In this document: positions 25,757 to 32,354 of the stretch, in pieces
How the letters are laid out: each line of letters begins with the position of its first letter
How positions within the stretch are numbered: the first letter of the stretch is position 1
Source of the DNA: Suicoccus acidiformans
GTDB lineage: Bacteria; Bacillota; Bacilli; Lactobacillales; Aerococcaceae
Length of the DNA stretch: 64,000 nt
Direction: 5' to 3'
Assembly (NCBI RefSeq): GCF_003546865.1
Contig: NZ_CP023434.1
Coordinates: 2,356,001-2,420,000 of the forward strand
Program-made: the position numbers and the translations under genes
The notes under the pieces: model-generated
Told to the model about the DNA's origin: nothing
The model's input: the letters and a program-made list of their open reading frames with translations, nothing else
Databases searched by the model: none

Positions 25757-25926
25757 GTTCCTCCTCGTCAATTTTTAGAAAATGACTTGCTCCACAGGAA
25801 TTACCGACCGCCAGTGGCAACATATCCTAGCGTGTCGCAACCTCCTATTTCAACGCTGTCAAGGTCATCCAGAGTATATCCTGATGACACAACGAGTATT
25901 ATACCGAAACAAATCGCGAGACGCAA
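25757..25926 (-). promoter_or_regulatory. Promoter and 5' leader of the S10 operon
   Basis: On the minus strand TTGCGT (25921-25926), a 17-base spacer and TATAAT (25898-25903) form a good promoter. Transcription would start near 25890, giving about 135 untranslated bases before rpsJ. An unexplained aggagg (near 25843) lies upstream in this leader. I see no intrinsic terminator and no recognised ribosomal-protein-binding motif. Together with bases to 26049, the rest of the gap would hold the promoter of the divergent methyltransferase gene. Confidence 0.6.
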
Positions 25927-27047: not shown

Positions 27048-27941
27048 TTATGGCGCTACATTCCTTGCAATATTCAACTTCAAATCGGTCTGCTCTAAAC
27101 TGCTTCGGCGCTTGGTGGACTCCCGGAACATCTCTTTCAAGTCTTGGCTGTTCGATGTCTGAATGGCTTGCTTCATTGCTTGCCACTCCGTCTCAAAGGC
27201 AGCCATCGATTCCAACAAAGATTCCTTATTATATAGGAAGAGTTGCGCCCAAAGCTCATCATTAATCTTCGCAATTCGGGTCAATTCTCGGAAACTATCC
27301 CCGACAAAGCTTGCCGTATCCCGATCATGGCGGTCACTATTCATCAAAGCGACGGCTAGCACATGGCATAATTGACTGGTATAGGCAATCATCTCATCAT
27401 GAAATTCCGGCGTCACATGGGTAATCCGGCGAAAGCCAATCGCATCCAGTATCAATTCTAGCTTGTCGATGTTAGCTTGTTGATTTCTCGGGCGAGGCAT
27501 CAATAGGTAATTTGCCCCATGGAAGACACCTGCTTCCGCATATTCATAACCTTGGTTTTCCCGACCGGCCATTGGATGGCCAAAGATGTAATCCACATCC
27601 GGGCGCAAAATCGCCTCAACTTGCTGGATTAAACTGCCCTTAACACCGACGGTATCGGTAATAATGGCTCCTTTTTTGAAAGCATCTTGATGGGTTTGGA
27701 TAAAGTCAACTAAGTCATCTGGATACAGAGAAATTATCACGACATCCGCTTGTTGGAGGATGCTCTCATTGCTGGTTTCTCCCTGAGTGATAATTCGCTC
27801 GTCGAGGGCCCGCTGAATGGTCGCTGCATTCGTATCAATCCCTAACAAATTCACATGTATGACATTCTGCGCCCTCAGTCCTTTGGCAAAAGATCCGCCA
27901 ATAACCCCCAAGCCGACTAAGGCAATATTAAGCGGTCGCAT
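27048..27941 (-). CDS. tyrA: Prephenate dehydrogenase
   Basis: Oxidatively decarboxylates prephenate to 4-hydroxyphenylpyruvate for tyrosine synthesis. 297 residues; the N-terminal Rossmann motif LVGLGVIGGSFAKGL binds NAD(P), and the central FGHPMAGRENQG contains the catalytic His. No ACT domain is present. The start at 27941 has a ggaggag site; it overlaps pheA by 14 bases. It is the last gene of the transporter-glnQ-pheA-tyrA operon, so it falls under the Phe/Tyr leader described at 32080-32354. Confidence 0.95.
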   Translation of the reverse strand: MRPLNIALVGLGVIGGSFAKGLRAQNVIHVNLLGIDTNAATIQRALDERIITQGETSNESILQQADVVIISLYPDDLVDFIQTHQDAFKKGAIITDTVGVKGSLIQQVEAILRPDVDYIFGHPMAGRENQGYEYAEAGVFHGANYLLMPRPRNQQANIDKLELILDAIGFRRITHVTPEFHDEMIAYTSQLCHVLAVALMNSDRHDRDTASFVGDSFRELTRIAKINDELWAQLFLYNKESLLESMAAFETEWQAMKQAIQTSNSQDLKEMFRESTKRRSSLEQTDLKLNIARNVAP

Positions 27942-28839
27942 AAGCCTCTCCTCCAATCTTTCCATCGTTCATCGGCTCGAAACATCCAATCAATTGCATC
28001 CGATTACTTGCATAAGCTAGCGTCTTCCAGAAAATTTCCATATCAATTCCCACATGGCTAATATCCACTTCAATGAAGAAACCATAGGCGAAAGGCTGGT
28101 CAGCAATCGGTCGTGCGTCTAAGCCTTCCAAGTTGCAATCATATAAGTTAAAGGTATTCAATAACTTGGCTAAGGCACCTGGCTTATGGGGCGTTTCGAC
28201 ATACAGCATTAACCGAGTACGCTTTGGATGCTCTCCCCGCATCTCTTGCAAGTATTTGCCAATGCCCTCTCCCGGTTCTACAAAGGACTCCATTAGAAAG
28301 AAACGCGTTGTATTCGTCTCCTCACTTTGAATCTCTTTCTGAAGGGGAATTAATTGATACAAGTCGCCACAACGGGGACTGGCTAAAGCAGCCAACTTAG
28401 GATTCTGCTCATCTGCGACCAATTTAGCCGATTGGGCTGTGTCGGTATAGGCAATGGGTTGAATCCAAGGATGCGCTGCAAAGAAATTACGGCATTGCGA
28501 CAGGGCTTCTGGATGCGAGTATACCTCTTCCAAGTCCTCAATGCGTCCACCTGGCACACCCCACAGGATATGCTGTACGGGCTGGTATACTTCAGCTGTT
28601 GCCAATACACTCTGGCCACGATATAAATCCATCGTCCGATCAATAAGGCCGGTGGTAGAATTCTCTACTGGCATCATGGCTGCATCTAATTTTTGAGAGG
28701 CGACATCTTGCACAAGTTCCACAAAAGAATTATAGCCGAGCATATCCAAATTTTTAATTTCAGCTTGCTTACGCTCTTGATATTGAATGCTTGCTGCTTC
28801 GCTATAAGAGCCAGCAATTCCTTGATAACCTATCTTCAC
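27928..28839 (-). CDS. pheA: Prephenate dehydratase
   Basis: Converts prephenate to phenylpyruvate for phenylalanine synthesis. 303 residues: PDT domain starting GYQGIAGSYSEAAS, with the conserved TTRFF motif near residue 177, then a C-terminal ACT domain (ETPHKPGALAKLLNTF, GLDARPI) expected to bind phenylalanine for feedback inhibition. It is monofunctional, with no chorismate mutase part. It begins 10 bases after glnQ and overlaps tyrA, so aromatic biosynthesis is tied to the transporter genes upstream. Confidence 0.95.
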   Translation of the reverse strand: MKIGYQGIAGSYSEAASIQYQERKQAEIKNLDMLGYNSFVELVQDVASQKLDAAMMPVENSTTGLIDRTMDLYRGQSVLATAEVYQPVQHILWGVPGGRIEDLEEVYSHPEALSQCRNFFAAHPWIQPIAYTDTAQSAKLVADEQNPKLAALASPRCGDLYQLIPLQKEIQSEETNTTRFFLMESFVEPGEGIGKYLQEMRGEHPKRTRLMLYVETPHKPGALAKLLNTFNLYDCNLEGLDARPIADQPFAYGFFIEVDISHVGIDMEIFWKTLAYASNRMQLIGCFEPMNDGKIGGEAYATA

Positions 28840-28849
28840 TTAAACCCTC

Positions 28850-29593
28850 CTATACCATCACACCGCTAAAGCCTTGAATAAACTGCTTCGTCCGCTCATG
28901 CTTCGGCTGTTCAAAGACTTGCGCCGGACTCCCATCCTCCAAGATATGCCCTTGATCTAAGAAGATAACATAATCCGATACCTCTTTGGCGAAGGTCATC
29001 TCATGGGTCACCAAAATCATCGTCGTATCATTATGGGCAATATCTTGAATCAATTCCAGAATCCCACCAACTAATTCCGGGTCTAAGGCGGATGTTGGTT
29101 CATCAAATAAGATAACTTCTGGTTGAATTGCAAGAGCCCGAGCGATACCAACCCGTTGCTGCTGCCCGCCTGACAAACGACTTGGGTAGTAATCCATCCG
29201 ATTGGCCATCCCTACTTGCTCTAAATAGTGACTCGCCTTATCGCGGGCTTCACTTTCCGGCAGTTTCTGAACCATCAACAAGTTCTCCATCACATTCTCT
29301 AAAGCCGTCTTCTTCGAGAAGAGAGCATAATTCTGAAAAACCATAGCAGTTTGCCGGCGAATTGCTAAGATGTCTTGCTTGGACACATGTGCTACATCAT
29401 AAGTTTGCGTACCTAAGGTAATCAGCCCCGAATCCGGTTGCTCCAAGAAATTAATCGTACGAAGTAAGGTCGATTTACCCGACCCACTGGACCCGATAAT
29501 GGTCAAGACATCTCCTGTAGACACTTCCATATGGATATTATTAAGCACTTGATTGTTGTTAAAGGATTTATTCCATTGTTCTAATTTCAGCAT
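28850..29593 (-). CDS. glnQ: Polar amino-acid ABC transporter ATP-binding protein (GlnQ-like)
   Basis: 247-residue ATPase that powers the upstream permease. Walker A GSSGSGKST, Q-loop VFQNYALF, signature LSGGQQQRVGIARALA, Walker B VILFDEPTSALDP and H-loop VTHEM are all present. It lies 13 bases after the permease gene and 10 bases before pheA. The glnQ label reflects family; co-transcription with pheA-tyrA makes import of an aromatic amino acid or precursor a real alternative. Confidence 0.92.
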   Translation of the reverse strand: MLKLEQWNKSFNNNQVLNNIHMEVSTGDVLTIIGSSGSGKSTLLRTINFLEQPDSGLITLGTQTYDVAHVSKQDILAIRRQTAMVFQNYALFSKKTALENVMENLLMVQKLPESEARDKASHYLEQVGMANRMDYYPSRLSGGQQQRVGIARALAIQPEVILFDEPTSALDPELVGGILELIQDIAHNDTTMILVTHEMTFAKEVSDYVIFLDQGHILEDGSPAQVFEQPKHERTKQFIQGFSGVMV

Positions 29594-29606: not shown

Positions 29607-32060
29607 TCACGCCTTTGTATCTGGGGCTACTGAATCAACTTGGGCTTCCGGGTCAATCGCATCCACGTCTAAACGCTTCTCCAACCAACCGACAAACCAT
29701 TCAATTAACAAGCAACATACCCAATAAATTAAAGCTACAGCAATATAAGCTTCGAAGAAACGTAAGTTAGCTCCCGCAATAATCCGCGCCTGACCCATAA
29801 TATCAATCACCGTCACCGTGAAGGCCAAAGACGTTCCTTTGAGTAAGCTAATTAAGCTATTACCCAAGTTAGGAATTGCCACAATCATCGCAGAAGGCAG
29901 TACAATACGGCGCATTGTCTGACCATCCGTCAAACCGATTGCCTTGGCAGCTTCAATCTCGCTCTTATTCACTGAGAGAATAGCTGCCCGGAAGGTCTCG
30001 GAATTATAAGCCGCTTCATTCAGCCCAAAGGCAATAAAGACGTAGATTAAAGCCGGAATACTATTCACGTCAAAACTCCAACCGAACTGCTGATTCAACC
30101 AACGCACCACCAAAGGGAAACCATAATAAGCTAAGAAAAGTTGAACTAGCTGTGGGGTTCCCCGCATAAATGATACAAATAAAGTCATTAATTGCGCAAG
30201 TACCGGCACTTTGTTAATCTTGGCTAAGGCAATTAAGAAACCTAGCACCAAACCAATAAGAGCAGAAACAAACGTCATCATGAGGGTAATCGGTAATTTA
30301 CCAAGAATGGTCGGCAGAATATCAGGAATAATCTCCGGTGCAAAAAGCTTACCCTCGCTTGAAGCTTCAGTATCCGCTACGTCCAATTCCCCGGCCGCCG
30401 CCTGCCGCTCTGCTTCAATAACGTCATTCTTCTCAATAATAGCTTCACTTAACTGGGCATTATCTTCGCCGAAATAAGTCTGACTCAATTGGCTCAAGGT
30501 GCCATCGGCACGCATCTCTGCCAAGGCCCCATCAATCGCTTCGCGTAAGTCAAGGTCTTCTTGTCGGTAAATGAAGTAAGAGCCAGGAGGTTGAATGGCG
30601 TCTTCATTCTCAATGGGGTGCCGCTTCAACTCAATACCGTAAGTATTCTGTACATCATTGAGATAAGTGGTTGAATAGATGGTCGCATCGAAGCGTCCGG
30701 TATAGACATCGCGAATAATTTGTGAGGGATCCGAGTCTACATATTGAATATCCACCGCCTTATCCGGATGCTCTTCATTCCAAGCTTCCAAGAACATGGA
30801 CTGGGGCGAAGCCGCAACGACCCCGAAGCTTTGCCCAGCCATCTCTGCCATCGTTAAATTATCCGGCGCTTCCGTATCGGTAATCATCACATTATGGGTT
30901 ACCACATAAGGATAATGGGAGAAGAGGTATTTCTCGCGTCGTTCCTCATTCTCGCCAAGATTATTCGCCACCATATCAAAGTTCCCTGCGTCTAAGCCAG
31001 CGAATAGCGACGGAAATTCCGTAATCTCATAAGTAAACGATAAATTCGGTACTCGCCGGGCAACTTCCTTTAGAATATCAATTTCTAGACCAGTTAACTC
31101 ATTGTTCTCATCGAAATAATTATTCGGCTTTGTTTGCCCAGTTGTCCCCACGACCACCCGACGCATCGCCGTCCCAGCCTCGCCTAAACGTTCGGCTTCA
31201 ATGGCATCATTCTTTTCAATAATCTCTGGTGTTAACTGTGAATTATCTTCACCGAAATACTTCATGCTAATCGCTTTAAGTGTGCCATCTTCACGCATCT
31301 CAGCTAAGGCTTCATCCATTTGCTCTCTAAGTTCAATATCTTCTGGCTGGTAAATAAAGTATGAGCCCGGCGGGCGAATCGCATCTTCATTCTCAATTGG
31401 ATGACGTTTCAGTTCAATGCCATAAGTAGACTGCACATCATTTAAGTAGGTTGTCGAATAAATCGTTGCATCGAACCGCCCGGTATAGACGTCCCGAATA
31501 ATTTGTGACGGATCAGAATCCACGTACTGAATATCTACTGCCCTATCCGGATGTTCTTCATTCCATGCCTCAAGAAACATGGATTGGGGAGACGCTGGTA
31601 CTACCCCAAAGGATTGGCCGGCCATATCTTCCATCGTTAGATTGTCCTCTGCATCCTTATCGGTAATAAGCACATTATGGGTGATAACATAAGGATATTG
31701 TGAGAAGAGATACTTTTCGCGTCGCTCTTCATTCTCACCCAAATTATTCGCAACTAAATCGAAATTTCCTGAATCCAGCCCAGCGAATAAGGAAGCAAAT
31801 TCGGTAATCTCATAAGTAAATTCAAGGCCCTCCACCCGTTCTTCAATCTCACTTAGAATTTCTATCTCTAAGCCCGTTAGTTCATTATTCTCATCGAAAT
31901 AATTACTTGGCTTGGTCTGACCGGATGTGCCGACAACTACTTTACGCACCGCATCTTCTTGGGCAGCAACCTCCTGCAGATTGCTCCCCCAAATATTGCC
32001 TAGTGGCAGAATCATTACGGCAGCCAGGAGAAGCCGCCATATCTTGTTAAGTCTTTCCAT
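29607..32060 (-). CDS. glnP: ABC transporter with two substrate-binding domains fused to the permease (GlnP-like)
   Basis: 817 residues: N-terminal signal/anchor helix (about 5-25), binding domain 1 (about 39-299), binding domain 2 (about 300-560), then a permease domain with several membrane spans and the EAA loop (EAAKAIGLTDGQTMRRIVLP). This layout matches lactococcal GlnP. The two binding domains align without gaps and are about 82% identical over 250 residues by hand count, far closer than in typical GlnP proteins. The ATG at 32060 has agagggg upstream; the longer ORF to 32168 runs through the leader terminator and is not real. Substrate unknown: glutamine, another polar amino acid, or an aromatic one. 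Confidence 0.9.
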   Translation of the reverse strand: MERLNKIWRLLLAAVMILPLGNIWGSNLQEVAAQEDAVRKVVVGTSGQTKPSNYFDENNELTGLEIEILSEIEERVEGLEFTYEITEFASLFAGLDSGNFDLVANNLGENEERREKYLFSQYPYVITHNVLITDKDAEDNLTMEDMAGQSFGVVPASPQSMFLEAWNEEHPDRAVDIQYVDSDPSQIIRDVYTGRFDATIYSTTYLNDVQSTYGIELKRHPIENEDAIRPPGSYFIYQPEDIELREQMDEALAEMREDGTLKAISMKYFGEDNSQLTPEIIEKNDAIEAERLGEAGTAMRRVVVGTTGQTKPNNYFDENNELTGLEIDILKEVARRVPNLSFTYEITEFPSLFAGLDAGNFDMVANNLGENEERREKYLFSHYPYVVTHNVMITDTEAPDNLTMAEMAGQSFGVVAASPQSMFLEAWNEEHPDKAVDIQYVDSDPSQIIRDVYTGRFDATIYSTTYLNDVQNTYGIELKRHPIENEDAIQPPGSYFIYRQEDLDLREAIDGALAEMRADGTLSQLSQTYFGEDNAQLSEAIIEKNDVIEAERQAAAGELDVADTEASSEGKLFAPEIIPDILPTILGKLPITLMMTFVSALIGLVLGFLIALAKINKVPVLAQLMTLFVSFMRGTPQLVQLFLAYYGFPLVVRWLNQQFGWSFDVNSIPALIYVFIAFGLNEAAYNSETFRAAILSVNKSEIEAAKAIGLTDGQTMRRIVLPSAMIVAIPNLGNSLISLLKGTSLAFTVTVIDIMGQARIIAGANLRFFEAYIAVALIYWVCCLLIEWFVGWLEKRLDVDAIDPEAQVDSVAPDTKA

Positions 32061-32079: not shown

Positions 32080-32111
32080 AAAAAAACCAGCATTAGATGT
32101 CCTAATGCTGG
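32080..32111 (-). terminator. Attenuator terminator in the leader of the transporter-pheA-tyrA operon
   Basis: On the minus strand ccagcattag pairs perfectly with ctaatgctgg (10 bp, 5-base loop) and is followed by seven T residues. It lies between the promoter and the glnP start, about 20 bases before that start codon. A terminator here can only act as a conditional switch for the operon. Confidence 0.92.
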
Positions 32112-32280
32112 TAATCTCTCGGAATATGGGCTAGAGCCCTTGAGATAGCCTACATTAGACATTGTCATCTATGTAGGCAGGCTAACGCTTACTTCCATAG
32201 ATACAAACACGGTTTGCTGGTTTGTACCTAAGCTACAAACCCTATCTATAAAAGTAAAAATAAAAGCCTTGCATCTCAAG
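32112..32280 (-). promoter_or_regulatory. Leader RNA with competing helices upstream of the attenuator
   Basis: Complementary segments, in plus-strand positions: 32273-32280 with 32139-32146 (8 bp), 32265-32269 with 32179-32183 (5 bp), 32243-32249 with 32197-32203 (7 bp), 32234-32241 with 32219-32226 (8 bp), and 32171-32178 with 32048+100-107, i.e. 32148-32155 (8 bp). Three of the first arms lie inside the leader-peptide codons, so a moving or stalled ribosome would decide which helices form. Two segments could open the terminator: 32153-32158 (matches its 5' arm) and 32216-32223 (matches its 3' arm plus T-run). Which is used is not settled by eye. Confidence 0.65.
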
Positions 32281-32295
32281 TAAATTCTCTAACAT
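32242..32295 (-). CDS. Phe/Tyr leader peptide
   Basis: A 17-residue peptide, MLENLLEMQGFYFYFYR, encoded about 24 bases after the predicted transcription start. An aaagga ribosome-binding site lies 9 bases before the ATG. Six consecutive aromatic codons (TTT TAT TTT TAC TTT TAT) come just before the Arg and stop codons. The downstream operon makes phenylalanine and tyrosine. Position, site, codon content and the following terminator together match the classical design in which ribosome stalling at scarce aminoacyl-tRNA prevents termination. The ORF is too short for standard gene callers. Confidence 0.85.
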   Translation of the reverse strand: MLENLLEMQGFYFYFYR

Positions 32296-32325
32296 AACTC
32301 ACATTCCTTTCTAATATTTAGTACC

Positions 32326-32354
32326 ACTATAAACAAAGTTACAGAATTTGTCAA
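32326..32354 (-). promoter_or_regulatory. Promoter of the glnP-glnQ-pheA-tyrA operon
   Basis: Minus strand TTGACA (32349-32354), 17-base spacer, TATAGT (32326-32331). It starts two bases beyond the stop codon of the upstream channel gene. Predicted start of transcription near 32319. Confidence 0.88.

Follow-up and report, generated by a model that had tools for sequence, protein, structure and literature searches.

The operon encoding a transporter, pheA and tyrA in Suicoccus acidiformans is preceded by a leader that, judging from sequence comparison and folding models, is very probably a ribosome-mediated transcription attenuator sensing charged tRNA-Phe and tRNA-Tyr. It was studied within a stretch of 64,000 nucleotides (the window; contig NZ_CP023434.1, positions 2,356,001 to 2,420,000), in whose numbering all positions are given. 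The leader ORF, the terminator, the conserved competing helices, the agreement of codon class with the downstream gene and the homology to other leaders were established from the sequence and by comparison with relatives. It is also likely that one scaffold, present in the Lactobacillales and in a few other Bacilli, acts as a re-codable attenuator, in which a swap of codons is accompanied by a compensated pairing strand. This scaffold would comprise a relay of seven helices with a third state (C:D) when the ribosome stands at the stop codon, and would form a translation-based parallel to the T-box.

Leader and downstream operon

All elements of the leader and operon are located on the minus strand. 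A promoter of the sigma-A type, TTGACA-17-TATAGT (32326..32354; -35 box TTGACA at 32354-32349, -10 box TATAGT at 32331-32326), is followed by the Shine-Dalgarno sequence aaagga (32305-32310) and a leader ORF of 17 codons, MLENLLEMQGFYFYFYR (32242..32295; ATG at 32295, stop codon TAG at 32244-32242). Homologous leader peptides occur in related loci, and similar promoter boxes precede related leaders. The ORF contains six consecutive Phe/Tyr control codons, TTT TAT TTT TAC TTT TAT (32248..32265). Promoter, aaagga site and ORF with its six codons had been described in this form by the initial annotation, which placed the existing codon run at 32245-32262, 3 nt away from its true position at 32265-32248. 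A chance origin of the run was rejected: among 612 ATG ORFs of 10-40 codons in the window it was unique to the leader ORF, and none of 17,252 ORFs in random sequence of the same trinucleotide make-up reached six such codons.

The terminator CCAGCATTAG-gacat-CTAATGCTGG (32111-32087) has a stem of 10 bp, as first described, or 11 bp with the flanking A-U pair. It is followed by seven T residues (32086-32080), and the first structural gene starts 3' of it at 32051. The folding energy of the complete leader (251 nt) was -92.9 kcal/mol, corresponding to z = -7.6 against 200 dinucleotide shuffles.

The first gene (29607..32051) encodes an ABC importer of 814 aa with two SBP_bac_3 domains fused to a permease (PF00497 twice, PF00528), and the second (28850..29593) an ABC transporter ATPase of the polar amino-acid type (PF00005). 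Prephenate dehydratase, pheA (27928..28839; PF00800, E 7e-48), and prephenate dehydrogenase, tyrA (27048..27965; PF02153 and PF20463), follow; on the basis of these domain matches, pheA and tyrA are the third and fourth genes of the operon, as had been annotated. For the importer, the leader predicts an aromatic or related substrate, and family models loosely indicate cystine or polar amino acids. An ordinary S10-Clostridia ribosomal protein leader (RF03136) was also found in the window at 25765-25861 on the minus strand, before the S10 operon.

The importer is 66-74% identical to its counterparts in four genomes (G010, G011, G019 and G016); partial relatives at 57-64% lay outside the leader comparison. 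pheA adjoins the importer in G010, G019 and G016. Homologous leaders with open aromatic reading frames were found before the importer in G010 (FYYFAYYR), G011 (YYFSYFR) and G019 (FYRFFR), and aromatic leaders also precede similar importers in G079 and G160. The aromatic run is thus kept in three of the four same-family relatives. The fourth, G016 (L230), retains the aromatic codons (LYSFYR) and some of the pairing but lacks hairpin B:C, and its frame is broken after eight A, which may reflect either decay or a sequencing error.

Competing helices

Eight strands, A to H, were defined on the minus strand downstream of the first control codons. Strand A (32242..32260) comprises control codons and the stop codon and pairs with D and the downstream extension of D, as indicated by covariation. 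Strand B (32234..32241), directly 3' of the stop codon, forms the 5' arm of hairpin B:C (97.9% of cells paired). Strand C (32219..32230) pairs with B, or with D once B is masked, as judged from C:D pairing in the alignment. Strand D (32186..32208), composed of GTTTGTATCTATG (32208-32196) and the extension GAAGTAAGCG, has A, C or E as partner according to alignment and folding. Strand E, CCTACATAGAT (32167..32177), pairs with D or F in the alignment, and strand F, ATGTCTAATGTAGG (32149..32162), pairs with E or, as an antiterminator, with G, based on folding and on a duplex test of own against swapped partners. Strand G (32097..32111) contains the 5' arm and loop of the terminator and is the antiterminator partner of F in the duplex test and in folding; strand H (32080..32096) contains the 3' arm and the seven T residues. 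The resulting relay runs A:D, B:C, C:D, D:E, E:F, F:G and G:H and ends in either terminator or antiterminator. Both end states exclude each other, F:G standing against G:H and E:F in the duplex test and in folding. The helices thus form a longer relay than a simple choice between terminator and antiterminator, and the competition between helices claimed at the outset was borne out by covariation and folding.

Two-sided changes were observed in the alignment in 7 of 9 outer pairs of A:D, in 5 of 8 pairs of B:C and in 4 of 5 pairs of E:F, with 0 of 500 shuffles as good for any of these helices, and adjacent strand pairs of 80 leaders preferred their own partner over a swapped one (0 of 2000 permutations), all these shuffle and permutation counts being statistics that ignore the kinship of the leaders. 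In the window, helix A:D has A-U for G-C and U-A for A-U where the codon TAC stands for the common AGC. Pairing of C:D extended over 14 consecutive columns with 93% of cells paired, and that of D:E was found in 90% of cells; both were in register and were lost when the partner was slid. In the swap test on the same 80 leaders, the non-adjacent control pairs 2:5 and 1:6 showed no own-partner preference. A weak own-partner signal was seen for the non-adjacent pairs 1:4 and 3:6, probably because strands 2 and 4, and 4 and 6, look alike. The losses on sliding the partner and the null result of the control pairs make it unlikely that relatedness explains the whole pairing signal.

A plain four-strand attenuator was rejected for most family members because helix E:F has no T run of its own; it holds true for some (L094, L132, L138 and others). 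In the Trp-class leaders L094, L132 and L138, a T run lies directly 3' of E:F; these leaders represent a shorter version of four strands, and a second terminator follows. In L123-L130 and L139-L148, the leader ORF is extended by three codons (SYFRYCL, SYFRNCL) and its stop lies inside strand B, so that B would be masked more completely.

Ribosome-masked folding

Folding was simulated for the RNA 3' of the ribosome up to the end of strand G, assuming a ribosomal footprint of 13 nt beyond the A-site codon. The simulation describes equilibrium folding and not kinetics. For 73 leaders, the share of the antiterminator was 0.81 with the ribosome stalled on the control codons, 0.47 with the ribosome at the stop codon, 0.32 with the ribosome further upstream, and 0.27 without a ribosome. 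The share with a stalled ribosome exceeded that without ribosome in 51 of the 73 leaders and fell below it in 1; for some, e.g. L089, L131 and L133, no switch was seen in the simulation. When strand A was shuffled in the absence of the ribosome, the share rose from 0.27 to 0.50; shuffling of the 24 nt before strand A led to no such rise (0.29). In the window leader, the antiterminator was dominant as long as the A-site was at one of codons 11-15; it weakened at codons 16-18 and was absent when no ribosome was present. The predicted difference between stalled and stop positions in this leader is moderate and hinges on the footprint and equilibrium assumptions. Within these models, performed in silico only, the position of the ribosome decides the fold of the leader.

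Proposed mechanism

We infer that the leader ORF is translated, that the ribosome stalls on it, and that stalling affects termination. Translation of MLENLLEMQGFYFYFYR would proceed during synthesis of the leader by RNA polymerase. A shortage of Phe- or Tyr-tRNA would hold the ribosome on the FYFYFY codons, so that it covers strand A. The B:C hairpin could then form and D could pair with E, so that F would be freed for the F:G antiterminator, and the polymerase would read into the transporter-pheA-tyrA operon. With Phe- and Tyr-tRNA both plentiful, the ribosome would reach the stop codon and cover A and B, and C would capture D. Formation of C:D would permit E:F to form, G would be left to H, and transcription would terminate. 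Because of the conserved C:D pairing, a ribosome at the stop codon can favour termination although it masks both A and B. If the leader is not translated or the ribosome has left, A:D and B:C would form, likewise leading to termination. Specificity for Phe/Tyr, Trp or Ile/Leu/Val would arise on the shared scaffold from changes confined to the control codons and the strand that pairs with them. The codon-sensing attenuation proposed initially is thus supported, on the level of sequence and model, by the match of codons to pathways described below, the covariation of codons with their pairing strand, and the masked folding.

Distribution and codon classes

A covariance model, R1, was built from 51 leaders. 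In the family to which the window belongs, it matched 63 of 76 genomes, with up to eight matches per genome; in the order as a whole, 196 of 295 genomes and 56 of 75 genera had a match, the matches being leader peptides in front of amino-acid genes. A search across the class gave matches in 32 of 349 genomes, and all but five of these belong to the order. When named genomes were scanned with a DNA pattern, the aromatic leader was identified in many species of Enterococcus and Tetragenococcus. Four loci were read in G443 and G470, and fitting genes (transketolase, an aminotransferase, aroF and pheA) were found behind the leaders. A leader-peptide attenuator would thus be present in two thirds of the genomes sampled from the order, with as many as eight copies per genome, and would serve three amino-acid groups.

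Five copies of the leader occur in the Suicoccus acidiformans genome. Leader L072 (MANFNETRVIITSIIR) precedes a LivJ-like branched-chain importer, and L224 (MHKQVFAIEYRWQNWHR) a TrpX-type importer. Two further aromatic copies, L071 and L223, precede genes of importers or of an associated dehydrogenase; in L071 (MAQVKLHNAVFFNSNFR), the leader is followed by a D-2-hydroxyacid dehydrogenase and a TrpX-like importer.

Codon class agreed with the pathway of the downstream gene in all 33 diagnostic cases (0 of 100,000 permutations as good), although these cases are not all independent and the gene identities were in part spot-checked and otherwise assigned by sequence motif. Phe/Tyr codons preceded aroE, aroF, aroC and pheA (19 cases), Trp codons trpB (2 cases), and Ile/Leu/Val codons ilvE, ilvA, ilvB and livJ-type genes (12 cases). 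In a tree of the substrate-binding proteins of 99 importers (72 with Phe/Tyr leaders, 27 with Trp leaders), the class changes once, on a starred branch. The initial annotation had considered a leader alternating Phe and Tyr codons unusual and undescribed. No description was found in the open papers searched; its singularity was wrong, since the leader belongs to a large homologous family and nearly all members of the aromatic class mix Phe and Tyr codons.

These data also bear on an alternative of the kind known from TnaC and Erm-type leaders, in which a free aromatic metabolite or a drug is bound and the growing peptide itself halts the ribosome. The end of the aromatic-class peptides, (Y/F)FSYFR, is strikingly conserved, which speaks for this alternative. 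However, the conserved positions of the peptide fall where the RNA pairs, and its final residue is not fixed (R, G, H, S, E, Q, D and others). Some families stop three codons later (SYFRYCL), and with a different downstream gene the class of the peptide changes too, to Trp or Ile/Leu/Val. Peptide arrest is therefore improbable, and attenuation through cognate codons is preferred.

If leaders are read in this way, the substrate or pathway of a downstream gene can be predicted from its leader, which would help with the many unassigned ABC importers; the family also offers naturally occurring codon swaps on a single scaffold, on which attenuator evolution could be tested. In G443, an aromatic leader (L294, NRYYYFGWFS) precedes transketolase and would tie the supply of erythrose-4-phosphate to aromatic demand. 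Family leaders were also seen before an oligopeptide-type binding protein of the SBP_bac_5 group (L227) and a CitMHS-type transporter (L244); the gene behind L308 was identified, by eye only, as that of another peptide-binding lipoprotein. This suggests amino-acid-linked roles for the three genes.

Relationship to RF02863

In a permissive search, the window leader matched the Rfam family RF02863 (sRNA_2410) over the whole model (E 1e-4). Its score of 37.9 bits lies under the gathering score of 61 bits, and the leader is thus homologous to the curated family and outside of it. The model includes the B:C and A:D helices and starts within the last codons of the leader ORF, which in the window encode the end of the peptide. 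The record itself files a small RNA of unknown role and contains no leader ORF, attenuation or codon swaps. Of 148 genomes sampled from the order, 87 had RF02863 matches, and often there were two or three in one genome. Nearly all examined matches were leader ORFs with peptide ends such as NNYYFSYFR or NNFFFSYFR, and the genes behind them coded for ABC_sub_bind-type importers, aroE, aroF, aroC and a window-like importer; L122 and L128, among the weakest matches, look spurious.

The founding member was detected in E. faecium as a 195-nt RNA with two transcripts by RNA-seq and Northern blotting (PMC5593968), and no assigned role for it was found in that paper. This transcript would agree with a mainly trans-acting small RNA, as the family is filed; a terminated leader would resemble such an RNA just as well. 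The matches lie directly before amino-acid genes in the same orientation, together with ORF, terminator and antiterminator, and the model begins inside the last codons of the ORF. A mainly trans-acting role is thus judged slightly less probable than the already improbable peptide arrest, and RF02863 may be re-labelled as a cis-acting leader of the attenuator type. The re-codable attenuator would have gone unrecognised because one member had been filed as a small RNA.

Related leader peptides had no match in NCBIfam or Pfam. In the open literature, the peptide string FSYFR was not found for any such leader peptide, and searches for aromatic attenuation in Streptococcus, Enterococcus and Lactobacillales revealed no description of this leader. 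An S. pyogenes editing study was unrelated and concerned editing of ermB and aroE. The leader family, its codon-swapped members and the role of RF02863 as an attenuator are apparently undescribed in open papers, subscription papers not being searchable.

Comparison with known systems

T-boxes, TRAP and CodY are usually held responsible for amino-acid control in Gram-positive bacteria. Neither the T-box model (RF00230) nor the Rfam models of enteric leaders (Phe, Trp, His, Leu, Thr) matched the window leader at E up to 10, and an identity with the T-box or another Rfam leader was rejected. Direct binding of uncharged tRNA or a protein to the terminator region, T-box-like or otherwise and with an incidental ORF, would agree with T-box control of such genes in related bacteria, e.g. 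trpX of S. suis (PMC9382623), and with 29 T-box matches in the window's genome, but is extremely improbable in view of the lacking T-box match and the fit of codon class to gene pathway. The 29 matches mean that T-box and leader systems coexist in this genome. The T-box leaders resemble the attenuator family proposed here in the kinds of target genes, in a codon-like specificity element and in many copies per genome; they differ in that the T-box RNA binds tRNA directly, without translation.

Leader-peptide attenuation in Firmicutes has been reported for histidine, with Bacillus hisS*/hisZ (PMC2965389) and his genes of the B. cereus group and others (PMC9413887). These leaders share the principle in Gram-positive bacteria and are confined to histidine and other taxa, being set apart here by description and not by RNA scaffold. 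A Leu-rich attenuator peptide before the ilv genes of S. aureus (PMC5794164) is likewise reported as a Gram-positive attenuator peptide of branched-chain genes; the comparison was made by description and not by scaffold. The uORFC-13-1 motif, a proposed attenuator of Acholeplasma aroF (PMC8632094), also combines a short ORF containing Phe codons with a terminator before aroF. It differs in comprising 24 sequences of one genus, without described codon-swapped members.

The logic is shared with the enteric attenuators (trpL, the pheA leader, his), in which stalling on cognate codons selects the antiterminator before biosynthesis genes. In contrast to these, the leader family has a longer strand relay, and its single homologous scaffold has been re-coded to suit several amino acids. 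The logic of attenuation is therefore already known, and what appears to be new is a single homologous, widespread and re-coded scaffold with a longer relay of strands.
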